Positions 203 through 9,464 of a stretch of DNA of 13,841 bases are shown here, piece by piece; positions within the stretch are counted from its first letter, which is position 1, and each line of letters starts with the position of its first letter. Location: NCBI GenBank assembly GCA_017421145.1, contig JAFOTA010000020.1, positions 1-13,841 of the forward strand, given 5' to 3'. The translations under genes were made by a program, and so were the position numbers. Source of the stretch: Treponema sp. (GTDB taxonomy: Bacteria > Spirochaetota > Spirochaetia > Treponematales > Treponemataceae). The notes under the pieces are model-generated. The model was given only the letters and a program-made list of their open reading frames with translations. It did not search any database and was not told the origin of the DNA.

Positions 203-1110
203 TTTGGGTGACCGGTTGCAGCGGGATGCTTGGTGCGGAAATATGCAGGGGGCTTTTGCGCGGGAAAAAAGATTTTATAGGAACGGGAAGCGAGCTTGAT
301 ATAAGCGATTTTGAGAAAGCGGAATCTTTTTCGTACGATAAAAATATTTCGGCAATCATAAACTGTGCGGCATACACTTCAGTCGACAAGGCTGAATCGG
401 AACCAAGGGCAGCAGAAAAAGCAAACGTTGCCGGGCCGGAAAATCTTTCGCGCATTGCAGAGAAAAAAGGGGCTGCAATCATTCATTTTTCAAGCGATTA
501 TGTTTTTGACGGGACTTCCACTGCTCCCTACAAAGAAGATGATCCTGTTTCACCGCTCGGAATCTACGGGGCGACAAAAGCGGAAGGCGATGACAGAATC
601 CGCAGGTCACAAAGCCTTCACTACATAATAAGGACTTCGTGGCTTTACGGTGACGGCGAAAACAATTTTCCCGCAAAAATAATCAGGCTTTTGAATTCAA
701 GGGATGAAATCAAAGTCGTGGACGATCAGAAAGGTTCCCCCACTTTTTGCAGGACGGTTTCAGATGCCGTAGTAAAAATCATGGAACGTATTGGAACGGA
801 CATGCAGATTCCGGGAGGCACATACAATCTTACGGATTCCGGCGAAGCAACATGGTTTGATTTTGCAAGGGAAATCAGAAGGCTTGGAATTGAATGCGGG
901 GCCGTAAAAAACACTGAATGCAGGATAACGGCTTGCACGAGCGAAGAATTCAACTCTATTGCAAAACGTCCGCATTATTCAGTCCTTGACAAAACAAAAA
1001 TCCGGCAGACACTTAAAATAATGCCGCCGGACTGGAAACATTCACTGGCCGATTTTTTCAGGCTGATTCAAACCAGACAAACGCCGGACAATCCGGGAGA
1101 TCCACCATGA
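199..1110 (+). CDS. rfbD: dTDP-4-dehydrorhamnose reductase
   Basis: The 303-residue protein is an extended short-chain dehydrogenase of RfbD/RmlD type. It reduces dTDP-4-keto-L-rhamnose to dTDP-L-rhamnose with NAD(P)H in the cytoplasm, the last step of the pathway. Visible motifs are the Rossmann loop GCSGMLGAE (residues 6-14), [12 protein letters not shown] (55-66), SSDYVFDG (98-105) and the catalytic YGATK with Tyr123 and Lys127. A longer frame opens at 133, but the ATG at 199 puts the Rossmann strand MIWVTG right at the N-terminus, as in the family. It is preceded by GGGGAG about 5 nt upstream and overlaps the rfbB stop. The gene ends 4 bp before the stop of the convergent potD paralogue. 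I see no convincing terminator between them. Confidence 0.95.
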
Positions 1111-2330: not shown

Positions 2331-3383
2331 TCAGTCTGTGAACCTGACTTTCTGCCAGCGTTCGTTGTATTTGTCAAGGCCTTCTCCAAGGTCTATTTTG
2401 AGCGTGCAGTTGTTCATCTGGCTTGCCTCGTACATGGGCTTTTCTTTCATGAACTTTTCTGCGGACGGGTTCACAAAGCATGGAAAATGGAAAGTGTCAA
2501 GGAATTTCGCATACACTTCAGGTCTGTGGATGTAGTTTATGAATTCCGTTGCAAGCTCGACGTGCTTTGAATCCTTGAGGATGCACATGCTGTCAAGATA
2601 TGAGGCTCCTCCTTCCTGCGGGATAAAAAAGTCTATCGTTTCGTCCCACTTTTCCTCAGGCACTTCTCCGTACACGACTTCCGCATATCCATGGCAGAGC
2701 CAGAAATCTCCTGCGGCAAATGATTTTCCGAAGCTTTCCGCATCGAATTTCACAAGGTTCGGCTTCCATTCCTTGTCTATCATATCCACGGCGGCATCAA
2801 GCTCCGAATCATTCAGGCTGTTCACGTCATATCCCTTGTGCGCAAGAGCGTCTCCTATGACTTCACGCATGTCGTCCATCATGGTTGCGTGTCCTGCAAA
2901 CTGCTTGTCGGCAAAAATGCCCCATGAACGCTCGTACGAACCGGCAGGGACTTTCGTCTTGTTCACGCATACGCCGGCAGCCCCGAAATAATACGGAACG
3001 GCATATTTCATATCAGGATCGTAGGTCGCCTTTTCAAGCACCAGAGGATTTATGTTTCCGCGGTTTGTGAGCTTGGTCTGGTCAATCTCCTTGAGCATGC
3101 CCTGGTTAAGCATGATCGATACATAATCCTGTGAAGGAACAACGATGTCATAGCCTTTTGCACCTGCACGGAGCTTTGCATACATCTCTTCGTTTGAAGC
3201 ATAGCTGTCAACCTTTACCTTGCAGTCAAACTCCTTTTCAAAATCACGGAGAACTTCTTCCGGCGTATAATAGGTCCAGTTGTACAGGTAAAGAGTCTTT
3301 CCGTCATCAGATGCGCATGACGTAAGCCCAAGCGAAAATGCGGTCAGGACAGCAGCCGCAAAAACCATAGCAATTCTTTTCAT
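2331..3383 (-). CDS. potD: Spermidine/putrescine-binding lipoprotein PotD (operon copy)
   Basis: The 350-residue protein is the periplasmic solute-binding subunit that delivers polyamines to PotBC. The signal peptide ends LGLTSC, with Cys23 the probable lipidated residue, so it would be anchored to the outer face of the inner membrane. The polyamine-site segments are LYLYNWTYYTP (31-41), VVPSQDYV (81-88), DDMRE (170-174), GDFWLCHGY and SYLDSM, where Tyr262 and Asp264 align with E. coli PotD Trp255 and Asp257. The Glu of E. coli NWTEY is Tyr here. The start is ATG with GGAGA 7 nt upstream. It lies 27 bp after potC and is the last gene of the operon, followed at once by a strong terminator. The family assignment is secure; whether it prefers putrescine or spermidine cannot be told from sequence. 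Confidence 0.95.
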   Translation of the reverse strand: MKRIAMVFAAAVLTAFSLGLTSCASDDGKTLYLYNWTYYTPEEVLRDFEKEFDCKVKVDSYASNEEMYAKLRAGAKGYDIVVPSQDYVSIMLNQGMLKEIDQTKLTNRGNINPLVLEKATYDPDMKYAVPYYFGAAGVCVNKTKVPAGSYERSWGIFADKQFAGHATMMDDMREVIGDALAHKGYDVNSLNDSELDAAVDMIDKEWKPNLVKFDAESFGKSFAAGDFWLCHGYAEVVYGEVPEEKWDETIDFFIPQEGGASYLDSMCILKDSKHVELATEFINYIHRPEVYAKFLDTFHFPCFVNPSAEKFMKEKPMYEASQMNNCTLKIDLGEGLDKYNERWQKVRFTD

Positions 3384-4277: not shown

Positions 4278-5317
4278 TTTTTACCTCCGAAAGCGTCTCC
4301 GGCAAGCAGCGGCGTATTTGTGTTCGCGGCAATGTCTTCTTTCGTGGAAACTTTCTTAAGGTTCGCCTCTTTTCTGTTGGACATGAGCATCCACATGATG
4401 GCGGCCATGGAAATGATGGTTATCACAAGGCTGAATGCTGAGGCAAGCGGCCAGTTCCTGACTTTCTGAACCTGATCTACGATGATGTTTCCGAGCATGT
4501 AGCTGTCCTTTCCGCCGACCATCTGAGGAACCGTATAGGAACCGAAAATCGGGATGAAAGTAAAGATCAGCGCACTGATTATTCCGCTTTTTATTTCGGG
4601 AATCAGCACCTTGAACATGGACTGGGGCTTGGTGGCTCCAAGATCGCGTGCAGCTTCAAGCAGGCTGAAATCAAAGCGGTCTACGGAAGTGAATATCGGG
4701 AGTATGGCATACGGAAGGTACATGTATATGCTCACGAGAACTATCGCACCCTGTGTGAACATGAACTTGTGCGGCACGAATTCCGCGGCTTTTGTCCAAC
4801 CGAACGAATGGCCTATGTTCCAGAAAAATTTAAGTATGCCGTTAAGAAGCCCTGCGTCTCCGAGTATGGTCTGCCACGCAAATATGCGGATGAGGCTGTT
4901 GGTCAAAAAAGGAATCACCACCAGAATCAGAAAGAAAGTCTGGTGACGGCTCTTCGCCATGGCATAACCGCACGGAAGGGCAAGCACGATGGAGATGAAG
5001 CTTGAAAGCGCCGCAATCCACAAAGTCCGCAGAAAGATTTTTCCGTATGCAGGATCGAACATCTGCGTGTATGCCTTGAGCGTGAATTTCGGTTCGACGC
5101 CTCCGTATACATCGCGGGTCATGAATGAATAGGCCACGATGATCACGATAGGGACGATGAAAAACAAGGAAAACCAAAGTCCCATAGGCCACGCATAGAA
5201 CGGACCCGGATTCGGCTTTTTGAATTTGAACGCCCTGGCCTTTGAAGCAAGTTTCAAATCAGCAGGGATTTTCTGCTTTTCCTTTGACTCTTCGTTTTTT
5301 TTGCTTTCAGAACTCAT
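4274..5317 (-). CDS. potB: Polyamine ABC transporter permease PotB
   Basis: The 347-residue inner-membrane permease pairs with PotC. It has an unusually long hydrophilic, Lys/Glu-rich N-terminus (about residues 1-38) before the first membrane helix (LWFSLFFIVPIVIIVAYSF, 47-65). A further hydrophilic tail of about 30 residues follows the last helix. The EAA loop reads LLEAARDLGATKPQSMFKV (219-237), followed by LIPEIKSGI, and is the contact site for PotA. The PotB-type segment VVIPFLTNSLIRIFAWQ (133-149) is present. The start overlaps the potA stop by 4 bp. A weak GAGGA lies about 11 nt upstream, so expression probably relies on coupling to potA. Both charged ends are longer than in E. coli PotB; their role is unknown. 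Confidence 0.95.
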   Translation of the reverse strand: MSSESKKNEESKEKQKIPADLKLASKARAFKFKKPNPGPFYAWPMGLWFSLFFIVPIVIIVAYSFMTRDVYGGVEPKFTLKAYTQMFDPAYGKIFLRTLWIAALSSFISIVLALPCGYAMAKSRHQTFFLILVVIPFLTNSLIRIFAWQTILGDAGLLNGILKFFWNIGHSFGWTKAAEFVPHKFMFTQGAIVLVSIYMYLPYAILPIFTSVDRFDFSLLEAARDLGATKPQSMFKVLIPEIKSGIISALIFTFIPIFGSYTVPQMVGGKDSYMLGNIIVDQVQKVRNWPLASAFSLVITIISMAAIMWMLMSNRKEANLKKVSTKEDIAANTNTPLLAGDAFGGKK

Positions 5318-6504
5318 TTATTGATGTCCTCGACGATATATCCGTCTTCTGCCGCCCAAGAGACATATACGGTGTCTTTCCATGCGATTTCAGGCCCGTC
5401 GTCCAGATAGTTCACGTGCTGCTTGAACACTTTGATTATGGAACCGTTTTCAAGGCGGACGTAGAATTTTGACTGGAATCCGGTGTAGACAGGCTCCTCG
5501 ACCACTCCCTTGAAAACATTGATGTCCTTGCGCCCGTTGATTTTCGGCTCTTCCGTTGTTATGCGGATTTTTTCAGGCCTGATCGTGAACGCGACTTTCT
5601 GACCGTGATCGGTGTGCTCGTAATCGGTGACGAGTATGTTCTTGTCCTCTTCCCTTGTTGCGGCGGTTTCACCCGTGAGCTGTGCCTGCATTCCGAGTGC
5701 CGGTACGTTGAGCGTAACCATGAACTCAGGATCTTTTCCCGGAACCTGATAAGGCTCGCAGTTTACGACGGTGCTCTCGAAGAGATTCGTTTCACCGATG
5801 AACTGTGCCACGAACTGAGTTGCAGGGCTTTCGTAGATTTCAAAAGGAGTGCCCACCTGGAGAACGTGCCCCTGGTTCATTACGGCAATCCTGTCGCTGA
5901 CCGCAAGTGCCTCGCTCTGGTCATGGGTTACATATATGAATGTGATTCCGATCTTGTCATGGAGTGCATCAAGGTCAACCAGAAGATTGGAACGGAGCTT
6001 TGCATCAAGTGCTGAAAGAGGCTCGTCAAGCAAGAGGACCTTAGGCTCGTTGATCAATGCACGTGCAATGGCCACACGCTGCCTCTGTCCGCCGGAAAGC
6101 TGGTTGGGCTTTTTGTTTATGTGCTGGTCAAGCTGAACCAGATGGAGATAATGGCGCACCCTTTCGTCTATCACGGATTTCTTTTCCTTGCGCAGCCTAA
6201 GCGGGAACGCGACGTTCTCATACACGCTCAGGTGGGGGAAAAGCGCATAGCTCTGAAAGACAGTATTGCTCGGCCTTTTGTTTGCCGGAAGCGGAATAAT
6301 GTTCAAATCATCGAAAAGGACGGCTCCCTCATCCGGGAACTCAAATCCGGCGATAATGCGGAGCAAAGTGGTCTTTCCGCATCCTGACGGTCCGAGCAAA
6401 GAGAAAAATTCCCCCTGCTTGATTGTAAAGTTAATGTCGTCCAAAGCCCGGAAATCACCGAAGTTCTTGGAAACATGATCAATGGAAACTGCACTTCCGT
6501 TCAC
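5314..6504 (-). CDS. potA: Polyamine ABC transporter ATPase PotA
   Basis: The 396-residue cytoplasmic ATPase powers PotBC. Motifs in order are Walker A GPSGCGKT (38-45), Q-loop Gln84 in VFQSYALFP, signature LSGGQRQRVAIARA (136-149), Walker B VLLLDEP (156-162), D-loop SALD and H-loop His194 in YVTHDQSEAL. The C-terminal part (about 240-390) contains a TOBE-like regulatory region with IRPEKIRI, typical of PotA/MalK-type ATPases. PotA is chosen over other importer ATPases because of the neighbouring potB, potC and potD. The start is GTG at 6502-6504. AGGAG lies about 11 nt upstream, a rather long spacing, and I found no better in-frame start. It is the first gene of the operon and has a structured leader of about 125 nt. 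Confidence 0.95.
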   Translation of the reverse strand: MNGSAVSIDHVSKNFGDFRALDDINFTIKQGEFFSLLGPSGCGKTTLLRIIAGFEFPDEGAVLFDDLNIIPLPANKRPSNTVFQSYALFPHLSVYENVAFPLRLRKEKKSVIDERVRHYLHLVQLDQHINKKPNQLSGGQRQRVAIARALINEPKVLLLDEPLSALDAKLRSNLLVDLDALHDKIGITFIYVTHDQSEALAVSDRIAVMNQGHVLQVGTPFEIYESPATQFVAQFIGETNLFESTVVNCEPYQVPGKDPEFMVTLNVPALGMQAQLTGETAATREEDKNILVTDYEHTDHGQKVAFTIRPEKIRITTEEPKINGRKDINVFKGVVEEPVYTGFQSKFYVRLENGSIIKVFKQHVNYLDDGPEIAWKDTVYVSWAAEDGYIVEDINK

Positions 6505-6522
6505 AGCAGGTACATCTCCTGT

Positions 6523-6631
6523 CCATAAAAATAGGGAACCACCATGCGTCTTGTATTTAAGCGGCTCCCATCAGGGCATTCCGGAAAACGTCTTGAAGCT
6601 GCAACATCTCTGCCGGCTCCCGGACGACCCT
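6523..6631 (-). promoter_or_regulatory. Structured potA leader with attenuator-like hairpin
   Basis: On the minus strand the potA 5' leader contains GGGAGCCGC (6561-6569), which can pair over 9 bp, two of them G-U, with GTGGTTCCC (6534-6542). The loop is 18 nt. The helix is followed directly by TATTTTTAT and then by the potA AGGAG, so it resembles a weak intrinsic terminator just before the ribosome-binding site. A second copy of GGGAGCC lies upstream (6615-6621) and could compete for the same GGTTCCC arm. This would fit an attenuation or translational switch upstream of a polyamine importer. No known riboswitch class was recognised. Structure is by eye only. Confidence 0.45.
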
Positions 6632-6637
6632 AATACT

Positions 6638-6666
6638 TTTATCTTTTATTTAGGCAGATATGTCAA
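6638..6666 (-). promoter_or_regulatory. Predicted potABCD promoter
   Basis: On the minus strand a perfect TTGACA (6661-6666) is followed after 17 bp by GATAAA (6638-6643), a 4/6 match to TATAAT. Transcription would begin near 6631, giving a leader of about 127 nt before the potA GTG. It is back-to-back with a plus-strand promoter candidate whose -35 lies 6 bp away. Confidence 0.65.
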
Positions 6667-6672
6667 GTTTTT

Positions 6673-6700
6673 TTGAGAAAAATTTATTTTTTTTGATAAA
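6673..6700 (+). promoter_or_regulatory. Candidate promoter of small RNA 1
   Basis: TTGAGA (6673-6678) and GATAAA (6695-6700) are separated by 16 bp, on the plus strand, divergent from the potA promoter. The region is A/T-rich, so chance matches are easy and this is a modest call. Its main support is the orphan plus-strand terminator 80-130 bp downstream. Confidence 0.4.
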
Positions 6701-6706
6701 AAGTGC

Positions 6707-6836
6707 ATAAGCCCTAATGCATTTCCAAAACATACCGATGATTTACGTATCCATTTCGCAGTAGAAATTACTGTTTTTTTATGCTCCGCGGTCTTCTATC
6801 CCCTCCCACCCATTAGGCCGCGGAGCACTTTTTTTT
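6707..6836 (+). ncRNA. Predicted small RNA 1 (C-rich terminator loop)
   Basis: The two flanking genes both run on the minus strand, yet a strong hairpin plus T-tract at 6782-6836 points along the plus strand, so an untranslated plus transcript is implied. The start near 6707 is inferred from a candidate promoter and is uncertain. Within it, CAGTA-GAAAT-TACTG (6759-6773) followed by seven T forms a weak inner hairpin that could also end transcription. The 26-nt terminator loop exposes CCCCTCCCA (6800-6808), an anti-Shine-Dalgarno-like sequence of the kind bacterial small RNAs use to block ribosome-binding sites. Two segments are complementary to small RNA 2: 6746-6760 and 6800-6808. No open reading frame with a ribosome-binding site was seen. 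Confidence 0.5.
6782..6836 (+). terminator. Intrinsic terminator of small RNA 1
   Basis: A perfect 10-bp GC-rich stem TGCTCCGCGG/CCGCGGAGCA (6782-6791 with 6818-6827) encloses a 26-nt loop. It is followed by CA-like flank and eight T (6829-6836). The opposite strand has no T-run, so the direction is plus. It cannot serve either neighbouring protein gene. Confidence 0.8.
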
Positions 6837-6856
6837 GCAATTCAAGGAAAAAACAT

Positions 6857-6885
6857 TTGACTTTATGGAAAAACCATAATATGAT
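6857..6885 (+). promoter_or_regulatory. Promoter of small RNA 2 with palindrome in its spacer
   Basis: TTGACT (6857-6862) and TATGAT (6880-6885) each match consensus in 5 of 6 positions and are separated by exactly 17 bp. The whole spacer is the palindrome TTATGG-AAAAA-CCATAA (6863-6879). This is a good position for a repressor to block polymerase or for a MerR-type activator to reshape the promoter. Transcription should begin near 6892. Confidence 0.7.
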
Positions 6886-6891
6886 TAGATA

Positions 6892-6971
6892 ATGTTCTAT
6901 ATGCGGAATGGATATGGAGCGTTGGCCTGCCGGCACTCTGGGAGGGGTTGCCGGTGGGCTTTATTTTTTTT
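6892..6971 (+). ncRNA. Predicted small RNA 2 (G-rich terminator loop)
   Basis: A strong plus-strand promoter and a hairpin-T-tract terminator only about 80 nt apart define a compact untranslated RNA between two minus-strand genes. Its 5' part (about 6892-6924) looks unstructured and contains TGCGGAATGGATATG (6902-6916). This can pair with 6746-6760 of small RNA 1 over 15 bp with two G-U. Its terminator loop carries TGGGAGGGG (6939-6947), the exact complement of the loop of small RNA 1. It is not antisense to a coding region; it ends 12 bp before the convergent PHP gene stop. The sequence matches no family I recognise. Confidence 0.6.
6925..6971 (+). terminator. Intrinsic terminator of small RNA 2
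   Basis: The 11-bp stem GCCTGCCGGCA/TGCCGGTGGGC (6925-6935 with 6949-6959) includes two G-U pairs. It encloses a 13-nt G-rich loop and is followed by TTTATTTTTTTT. There is no T-run on the minus strand, so it acts on plus-strand transcripts. Confidence 0.8.
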
Positions 6972-6982
6972 AGGGATGACCT

Positions 6983-7867
6983 TTATCCGTTTTCCCTGAA
7001 TTCCAGGCTTTCTCCTCCGTGGACTTTTTCAAGAAGGGGCTTAAGTCCGTCATACCACAAGGAATCGCTTATCTTAAGCTTCCCTGCCGCAAATCCAAGG
7101 AAACGGTCTGCACGTACTTTTTCACCGTGGAAATCAGAGCCTCCGGTGACCACGAGACCAAGGTTCCCCGCAAGCTCGACAAGCCTTTCTGCCTCGGATA
7201 TCCTGACTCCGGGATGCCACGCCTCAAGCCCCATAACGCCGGCTTCCTTTATGCTTTCCATGGTCTCCGCCATCTTTCCCCATGAAACGTACATTGAAAG
7301 CGGATGTGCCTGAACCGGAACTCCTCCAGAAGATTTTATGGCCTCAACCGCCGCTTCAAGCTCCGCTCCCTCGCGTTCTATATAGCACGGCCTTCCGACT
7401 GCAAAATAGCGGTCAAAAGCCTCCTGACGCTGCCTTACATAGCCTTTTTCCGTCATGATCTGGGCAAAATGGGGGCGTCCTATGTTTCCTGTGCCGAATC
7501 TTTCGGTCAGCTCATCGTAGGAAAGATCCACACCATGTCCCTTTAGAAGCGAAATCATCTTTTTGTTGCGGTTTATGCGCTCTTCATGCAGATAATCCGT
7601 TATTTTTCCAAGCTCCGGCGACTTGTGCGTAAGACCCAGGCCAAGAAGGTGGAATTCCCCGGTCGGCCAGCCTATAGTAATCTCAATTCCCGGAACGAAC
7701 GTAATGCCCTGATCTACGGCTTCGCGCTGAGCTTCTTCAAGGCCGGAAACAGTGTCATGGTCAGTCAGCGCCATGACTTCAAGCCCCTTGGATGCGGCAA
7801 GCTTCACCAGATCTGAGGGGGAATATGTGCCGTCAGACGAAGTCGAATGTGTGTGTAAATCAATCAT
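6983..7867 (-). CDS. PHP-domain phosphoesterase (RNase AM / nucleoside bisphosphate phosphatase family)
   Basis: The 294-residue cytoplasmic metal-dependent phosphoesterase has the PHP motifs in order: DLHTHSTSSDG (3-13), LTDHDT, PGIEI, GRPHFA, AHP and GGSDFHG. This is the full-length single-domain layout of the YciV/TrpH group. Characterised members are a 5'-3' RNase (Rnm/RNase AM) and a 3',5'-nucleoside bisphosphate phosphatase, so either activity is plausible; the substrate is not decided by sequence. The ATG at 7865-7867 is chosen because family members begin MIDLHTHS. An upstream GTG would add only six unlikely residues. There is no Shine-Dalgarno, and an extended -10 (TGCTATCAT) ends 8 nt before the ATG, so the mRNA may be nearly leaderless. 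It is divergent from the CRP-like regulator. I see no intrinsic terminator in its own direction. Confidence 0.88.
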   Translation of the reverse strand: MIDLHTHSTSSDGTYSPSDLVKLAASKGLEVMALTDHDTVSGLEEAQREAVDQGITFVPGIEITIGWPTGEFHLLGLGLTHKSPELGKITDYLHEERINRNKKMISLLKGHGVDLSYDELTERFGTGNIGRPHFAQIMTEKGYVRQRQEAFDRYFAVGRPCYIEREGAELEAAVEAIKSSGGVPVQAHPLSMYVSWGKMAETMESIKEAGVMGLEAWHPGVRISEAERLVELAGNLGLVVTGGSDFHGEKVRADRFLGFAAGKLKISDSLWYDGLKPLLEKVHGGESLEFRENG

Positions 7868-7875
7868 AGTGAGAA

Positions 7876-7884
7876 ATGATAGCA
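7876..7884 (-). promoter_or_regulatory. Extended -10 promoter of the PHP gene
   Basis: On the minus strand TGCTATCAT is an extended -10 (TGn plus a 5/6 match to TATAAT); no good -35 is visible. Transcription would begin 0-3 nt before the ATG at 7867, leaving no room for a ribosome-binding site. Confidence 0.5.
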
Positions 7885-7899
7885 CATTTGATTAATTTA

Positions 7900-9391: not shown

Positions 9392-9464
9392 GCCAACTTA
9401 GCTCATCCGGTAGAGCAGCTCCCTCGTAAAGAGCAGGTGACCCGTTCAAGTCGGGTAGTTGGCT
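9392..9464 (+). tRNA. tRNA-Thr(CGT)
   Basis: The 73-nt cloverleaf folds fully by eye. The acceptor stem GCCAACT/AGTTGGC is 7 perfect pairs. The D-arm is GCTC/GAGC with loop ATCCGGTA. The anticodon stem is GCTCC/AGAGC with loop CTCGTAA, giving anticodon CGT at 9425-9427, which reads ACG for Thr. The variable loop is AGGTG, and the T-arm is ACCCG/CGGGT with loop TTCAAGT. The discriminator is T and CCA is not encoded. The last anticodon-stem pair is a C-A mismatch. It stands alone with its own promoter and terminator. Confidence 0.95.

Follow-up and report, generated by a model that had tools for sequence, protein, structure and literature searches.

A candidate sponge RNA complementary at two contacts to a neighbouring putative small RNA in Treponema, and a widespread seed RNA predicted to share one of them

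Double kissing complexes, in which two separate loop contacts join two RNAs, are formed by OxyS with fhlA and by RNAIII with rot; unlike the pair described here, these join a small RNA (sRNA) to an mRNA. A C-rich sRNA matched by a G-rich sponge is likewise a known kind. In the CrfA/SisA-D system of Caulobacter crescentus, the sponge CrfA uses a G/A-rich stem-loop to bind the C-rich single-stranded core UUUCCUCCCU that the sibling SisA-D (alphaR8) sRNAs have in common, and alphaR8 is spread across most of a class (PMC12559287). As described there, it involves one contact, its sisA-D genes lie at separate loci, pairing is facilitated by Hfq and the sponge is induced by carbon starvation, all of which differ from what we report below. 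In Campylobacter jejuni, CjNC140 and CjNC110 bind each other directly through CU-rich and GA-rich stem-loops (CUCCUU/AAGGAG), by a single short contact of 6 nt, and no flagellar sigma logic enters the description cited (PMC10470494). In Escherichia coli, UhpU, MotR, FliX and FlgO are described as sRNAs under the flagellar sigma factor that derive from mRNA UTRs (PMC10578931). Described spirochaete small RNAs are few, and a 2022 survey placed T. pallidum among species averaging one or two annotated sRNAs, with the sRNAs there unexamined (PMC9029176).

The window analysed here is the whole 13,841-nucleotide stretch of a Treponema sp. contig (JAFOTA010000020.1). Its intergenic region 6505-6982 is flanked by two minus-strand genes, those of a pot-type transporter operon and a PHP-domain gene, and holds two plus-strand hairpin-terminator units, which we call RNA1 and RNA2. 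The features are as follows.

5314..6504, minus strand: potA-type ABC transporter ATPase gene
6715..6741, plus strand: RNA1 sigma-28-like promoter candidate, TAAT-N15-ACCGATGA (suggestive only)
6746..6836 (about), plus strand: RNA1, a putative small RNA that opens with contact A, followed by a small hairpin with a GAAA loop and then by a long terminator hairpin whose C-rich loop spans 20 nt; start inferred
6746..6760, plus strand: contact A, RNA1 side, CGTATCCATTTCGCA
6759..6780, plus strand: small hairpin CAGTAGAAATTACTG; in the window a T run comes after it
6782..6827, plus strand: RNA1 terminator hairpin, stem 6782-6794 / 6815-6827
6797..6812, plus strand: TATCCCCTCCCACCCA, the 16-nt seed, within the loop of RNA1
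6800..6808, plus strand: contact B, RNA1 side, CCCCTCCCA
6857..6885, plus strand: RNA2 sigma-70 promoter, TTGACT-N17-TATGAT
6892..6971 (about), plus strand: RNA2, a putative small RNA that forms two hairpins; the second is a terminator and has a G-rich loop
6902..6916, plus strand: contact A, RNA2 side, TGCGGAATGGATATG, towards the apex of hairpin 1
6939..6947, plus strand: contact B, RNA2 side, TGGGAGGGG, located in the loop of the terminator
6983..7885, minus strand: PHP-domain protein gene, the other flank

The first-pass annotation of this region had held that the arrangement matches no family known. As a kind, a C-rich sRNA with a G-rich sponge had in fact been described, in the Caulobacter and Campylobacter systems above, and the likeness drawn here between alphaR8/CrfA and RNA1-RNA3 (RNA3 is introduced below) is one of logic. 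What sets the treponemal RNAs apart from both systems is a second, private contact, the adjacency of the two genes and a sigma-28/sigma-70 split. At Rfam gathering scores, a tRNA gene at 9392-9464 (plus strand, RF00005) was alone matched in the whole window, and the best score in the RNA1/RNA2 region, 23.6 bits for ncS54, fell short of that family's cut-off of 43 and is no match. Two tandem paralogous substrate-binding protein genes (1115-2164 and 2331-3383, minus strand) follow the pot permease genes.

Both terminators that had been annotated on the plus strand are well supported: the terminator hairpin region of RNA1 (6781-6840) and the RNA2 region (6890-6971) each fold with a z-score of -6.4, equalled by 0/200 shuffles, and three pairs of the RNA1 stem show two-sided changes among four sequences. 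The small hairpin at 6759-6780 with its T run was considered as a conserved terminator and rejected, the T run being absent in three relatives (G002, G003 and G007). A promoter had been proposed for each RNA, and the two differ in strength. For RNA2, TTGACT-N17-TATNAT is kept in 5/5 genomes. Upstream of RNA1, TAAT and ACCGA (spacing N15/16) are kept in all six RNA1 genomes; however, the sigma-28-like promoter scores 9/12 in the window, a value reached by 34/300 shuffles (32-157/300 across the six genomes), and is therefore not significant taken alone. Because the conserved upstream TACCGA resembles a promoter, a start of RNA1 close to 6746 is probable, which would place contact A at the 5' end, and this start replaces the earlier one at 6707.

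The two RNAs can pair in two places. Contact A (6746-6760 with 6902-6916) comprises 15 bp including two G-U pairs, and contact B (6800-6808 with 6939-6947) comprises 9 bp; A precedes B in each RNA, so the two cannot form one long duplex. The first-pass annotation had every one of these coordinates right, and TAGAA (6762-6766) and TTCTA (6895-6899), which it also pointed out, are present. RNA1 and RNA2 thus lie adjacent on the same strand with contacts in parallel order, rather than on opposite strands in one long duplex as cis-antisense RNAs would. Conservation and energetics both support two RNAs joined by two contacts. In the five genomes with both RNAs, 110/110 contact cells are paired (65/65 in the 13-bp core of A, 45/45 in B), compared with 35-65/110 when the partners were slid by 1-3 columns, and only 2 of 44 contact columns are variable, against 44 of 133 other columns (Fisher p 6e-5). 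Independent drift of the segments among relatives was looked for and not seen. The sole two changes within the contacts, one per RNA, each yield a G-U pair, and the compensatory changes that had been suggested as a check did not appear in two-sided form in either contact in the five aligned genomes. For this reason the conservation favours pairing without proving it, and other causes could explain it.

Shuffled controls gave a divided answer. When the two best gapless runs that do not overlap were added together, the total was reached in 0, 0, 0, 1 and 1 of 300 dinucleotide shuffles in the five genomes, and when accessibility was counted, two equally good contacts were found in 0-5/200 shuffles and a match to the best single contact in 1-8/200, over six tests. 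The plain whole-RNA duplex energy was unremarkable (25-145/300 shuffles reach the observed value), but it ignores internal structure and is uninformative here. We regard conservation as stronger evidence for the contacts than the shuffle tests. Interaction energies, computed gapless and with opening costs, were about -12 kcal/mol net for contact B (-11.5 to -12.1) and -3.4 to -6.9 kcal/mol for contact A, with totals of -15.6 to -19.1 kcal/mol for the two together in the three genomes for which they were computed. Outside RNA1 and RNA2, no copy of the contact A sequence GCGAAATGGATA exists in G002, G003 or G007, and G001 and G050 have one each, at sites that look coding-like by inspection; bar these two places, only the pair carries contact A among the five genomes scanned.

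We scanned the best 80 of 190 loci with the PHP protein and checked 44 spirochaetal ones for synteny (L001-L043 and L062, leaving out L046 and L048). Among the best 80, contact motifs were found at L001, L006 and L008 only, and the PHP gene adjoins the RNAs there as in the window. potA follows the PHP gene in 4/44 loci, three of which carry both RNAs; the fourth, L010, has a spacer of just ~170 nt and neither RNA. Covariance models R1 and R2, built from four RNA pairs, were then run against 200 genus genomes with strict filters, the best candidates per genome being scored. RNA1 was found in 5/200 (E<1e-18) and RNA2, as a strong match, in 4/200 (E<1e-22), with one copy per RNA in each strongly matching genome; in the fifth RNA1 genome, G050, the contig ends ~340 nt beyond RNA1. 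Eight weak R2 hits in other genus genomes (35 bits or fewer) were rejected, all being without contact A, as were five weak hits from a further scan, of which one is among those eight and the other four lie at loci with neither GCG[AG]AATGG nor TGGGAGGGG. The other 25 of the best 30 potA loci, some of which end at contig ends, gave no R1 or R2 match save a chance-level R2 score (L129, E 1.8).

Counting the window, RNA1 lies directly upstream of potA in 6/6 genomes, with RNA2 there too where it was seen, and the two RNA genes are neighbours in 5/5 genomes where both were seen. In the window, G001 and G007, the RNAs are directed away from potA, RNA1 coming first and RNA2 second (in G007 the PHP-domain gene is on the same contig, but ~7 kb distant), whereas in G002 and G003 both are on the potA strand in the order RNA2, RNA1, potA. 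The spacing between them ranges from about 55 to about 330 nt, and both RNAs are conserved while the flanking intergenic DNA has changed. Since both genes are on the other strand in G002 and G003, in an arrangement not explained by simple block inversion, RNA1 and RNA2 appear to be free-standing, separate units that stay together. At L006 (5000-5270) and L008 (2931-3180), both RNA genes are strand-flipped relative to potA with their order along potA kept, which a single inversion cannot yield and which suggests individual relocation or a permuted re-insertion. Intergenic units such as TTTGCGAAGCAAAAAAATG(C/G)GAGCC, possibly intergenic repeats, were seen near the pair, twice in L001 (about 5060-5175), with a similar one in L084 (about 1920-1965).

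In a potA tree of 25 sequences, the bearers of the RNA pair fall in two subclades, which means two changes, and G108, G004 and G042, which do not have the pair, stand between them. The pattern could reflect a single gain and a single loss, and a single clade appears in 4% of bootstrap trees. A phage or plasmid origin was considered and rejected: phages and plasmids gave no match to the RNAs, the six exact seed hits in viral contigs are none of them RNA1 by the model, and the RNA2 pattern had no hit in viral contigs.

These comparisons bear on whether the locus owes its features to chance, or whether an element that is coding or acts in cis has been mistaken for RNAs. By eye, RNA2 can be read as a leaderless frame starting MFYMRNGYGA; however, a one-base length change shifts this frame between the window and L001 on the one hand and L006, L008 and G007 on the other. 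The two-contact statistic was matched by just 0-1/300 shuffles, and the variable orders, strands and spacing would also be hard to reconcile with either, and we hold both to be highly improbable. Small peptides were set aside by eye, as their frames shift or their starts vary among genomes.

A search for mRNA sites matching the RNA1 loop led to another putative intergenic RNA, RNA3, which in G001 and G050 carries TATCCCCTCCCACCCA in a hairpin loop, as do the RNA3 copies of G002, G003 and G007. Within one mismatch, the pattern TATCCCCTCCCACC is found in 186/196 genus genomes, mostly once, and reversed-pattern controls gave mostly zero. Thirty aligned copies, from which L203, where the seed match is due to chance, and L206, which is a copy of RNA1, were left out, share an architecture of a seed hairpin, a short hairpin that is mostly TGCCTGATGGGCA-like, and a terminator. 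Their loop carries a near-invariant CCCCUCCC seed, an invariance that in this alignment is partly by construction, the seed having been the search pattern; the hits of the R3 covariance model in the family and class, among them 19 copies outside the family, were selected without the exact pattern. The seed hairpin (helix 1) shows two-sided changes with pairing kept at 9/9 pairs, and its covariation score was reached by 0/500 shuffles. The copies lie as follows.

L139, about 687-795, minus strand: RNA3
L141, 1485-1580, plus strand: RNA3
L178-L207 (except L203 and L206), L268 and L281-L299: RNA3

Model R3 finds RNA3 in 260/274 family genomes, nearly always as a single copy, and in 83/394 genomes of a class draw, 64 in the family list and 19 outside it; all these counts are lower bounds, since strict filters lose weak matches. 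A relaxed search of the 14 family genomes without a match recovered a homologue in G247 and a copy with a masked loop in G046, and found no seed at the matched place in the remaining 12. The G247 match, in a 1.1-Mb genome, is weak (E 0.0035) but has TTCCCCTCCCACC, a TCAAG-N15-CCGATA promoter word (by eye) and, like L178 and L193, an adjoining transglycosylase/penicillin-binding protein gene. The 19 copies outside the family (E 2e-7 to 7e-4) are all homologue-like: 18/19 have CCCCTCCC and one has TCCCTCCC, the seed lies in a loop in 18/19 folds, and CGA[TC] stands 28-32 nt upstream of the seed in 19/19. Nine RNA3 loci (L139, L141, L281, L284, L289, L268, L193, L178 and L194) had no match to Rfam at gathering scores. 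The transglycosylase/penicillin-binding protein gene also adjoins RNA3 in L268 and, by eye, in L188, L194 and L205; a PEGA-domain gene is often on the other side (in L268, an M23 peptidase gene), and the neighbours in G002 and G007 differ.

The promoter of RNA3 points to flagellar control. T[AC]AAG-N16/17-CGATA stands at 23/30 loci, and one of the other seven is cut off. Among 28 flagellin upstream regions from 12 genomes, 11 have, at -173 to -195, TAAA-N16 with a -10 that resembles GCCGATAA, scoring 10-12 of 12 (reached by 0-12/200 shuffles), and in 17/28 the sigma-28 design was not found at that place. The T. denticola flaB2 promoter, whose start was mapped, is reported with -35 TTAA and -10 CCGATAA (PMC9481697). 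By its sequence, the RNA3 promoter appears to be of the sigma-28 design of treponemal flagellin genes, and because this design is shared with the flagellin upstreams and the mapped flaB2 promoter, RNA3 is very probably under sigma-28. It would thereby resemble the E. coli sRNAs under the flagellar sigma factor; however, those come from mRNA UTRs, and RNA3, which has a promoter and a terminator to itself, looks like an independent gene between other genes. The flagellin upstream regions examined are those at L238-L249, where the tandem neighbours of the 11 lack sigma-28-type promoters.

RNA1 shares the 16-nt seed in a hairpin loop but departs from the three-hairpin order of RNA3 (seed hairpin, short hairpin, separate terminator). 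Because its seed hairpin is itself the terminator, we call RNA1 a seed-sharing sibling and not a member of RNA3. We infer from its conservation that CCCCUCCCA, the core common to RNA1 and RNA3, is the functional seed, with contact B as its exact complement; since TGGGAGGGG of RNA2 is that complement, RNA2 should bind RNA3 too. In the four genomes tested, RNA3 and RNA2 are predicted to pair through the same contact B at about -12 kcal/mol, and nothing like contact A was found as a second contact, the second-best being -1.2 or weaker. RNA3 seems to function without this sponge almost everywhere, since RNA2 is found in just 4/200 genus genomes plus the window. The RNA1 seed is likely conserved for RNA3-like reasons, and the RNA1 side of contact B would then be conserved even without RNA2.

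We suggest, with a probability of about 0.5, that RNA2 is a sponge for anti-Shine-Dalgarno RNAs of sigma-28 type, with an extra hold on RNA1, and that a threshold results. RNA1 and RNA2 would be transcribed as two trans-acting small RNAs that bind in cells, with RNA1 a clade-specific sibling of RNA3. The loop seed CCCCUCCC of RNA3 resembles the anti-Shine-Dalgarno sequence, and both RNA1 and RNA3 would act by blocking translation where an mRNA has a ribosome-binding site of the GGGAGG type. RNA2, expressed from its sigma-70 promoter, would hide the seed of both by pairing its G-rich loop with it through contact B, while contact A would be a second hold on RNA1 only; the seed RNAs would then act only once their synthesis exceeds that of RNA2. 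The roles that had been proposed for the pair, RNA1 as regulator and RNA2 as its sponge, are supported in part, conservation and energetics favouring the anti-Shine-Dalgarno-like loop and the sponge-like partner; a reading of RNA1 as bait stays beside them.

In that reading, RNA1 is an anti-sponge that baits RNA2 through contacts A and B and so frees RNA3, with no mRNA regulation of its own. RNA1 is predicted to win RNA2, since it offers two sites (-15.6 to -19.1 kcal/mol) against the single site of RNA3; contact A, moreover, is all but private to the pair, and the two genes are together in all five genomes with both. The sequence would fit either direction of titration. However, RNA1 retains all 16 nt of the RNA3 seed and not just the 9 nt that a bait needs, which suggests other seed targets, and we consider the bait unlikely.

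It is rather unlikely, too, that RNA2 is no sponge and that its G-rich loops bind CsrA (ANGGA) or the anti-Shine-Dalgarno sequence of 16S rRNA, with contact B as a by-product. Two ANGGA motifs are conserved in 5/5 RNA2 copies, all of which have 3-4 GGA, and these motifs could serve CsrA; CsrA sponges of the CsrB/RsmZ type carry many GGA motifs in hairpin loops. A CsrA homologue is reported for T. denticola, and its sites lie close to the Shine-Dalgarno sequences of flagellin genes (PMC9481697). Such binding would leave the 13-15 bp of contact A unexplained, and the exact 9-bp match of contact B to the RNA3 core of the same genome goes beyond a generic need for GGAGG. A further possibility is that the two-contact complex of RNA1 and RNA2 is the effector itself, a two-piece RNA for a protein or the ribosome. 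The two conserved contacts in parallel order and the neighbouring genes in 5/5 genomes would suit such a complex, but in nearly all genomes the seed is present in RNA3 while RNA2 is missing, and the different promoter types of RNA1 and RNA2 would make unequal amounts, so we think this very unlikely.

Returning to RNA2 as a sponge, a broader statement can be made, to which we give slightly less than even odds. RNA3 would be a sigma-28-controlled anti-Shine-Dalgarno RNA across treponemes and other families of the class, so far undescribed and among their most conserved regulators, to which one gut lineage has added a private module: the sigma-70 sponge RNA2 and the seed-sharing bait or regulator RNA1, with a second contact, setting a threshold between flagellar and housekeeping transcription. 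By title or the start of the abstract, no description of RNA3 in treponemes was found among the open-licence literature matches listed, and an earlier description elsewhere is possible. With its apparent flagellar promoter and usually single copy, RNA3 offers a handle on post-transcriptional control of periplasmic flagella. RNA1 and RNA2 would be a natural two-contact sponge beside its partner gene, with one contact shared with the older RNA3 and one private, and this combination makes the evolution of sponge specificity testable.

As to mRNA targets, potA was considered as a target in cis and rejected, because none of 13 start regions in the window, that of potA among them, offers more than five Watson-Crick pairs to the seed. 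A search of five genomes for TGGGAGGGG-N1-13-ATG gave 10 hits (one site counted twice) and no clade-wide target; two of the hits are RNA3 read from the other strand, and one in-gene site is common to G002 and G003.
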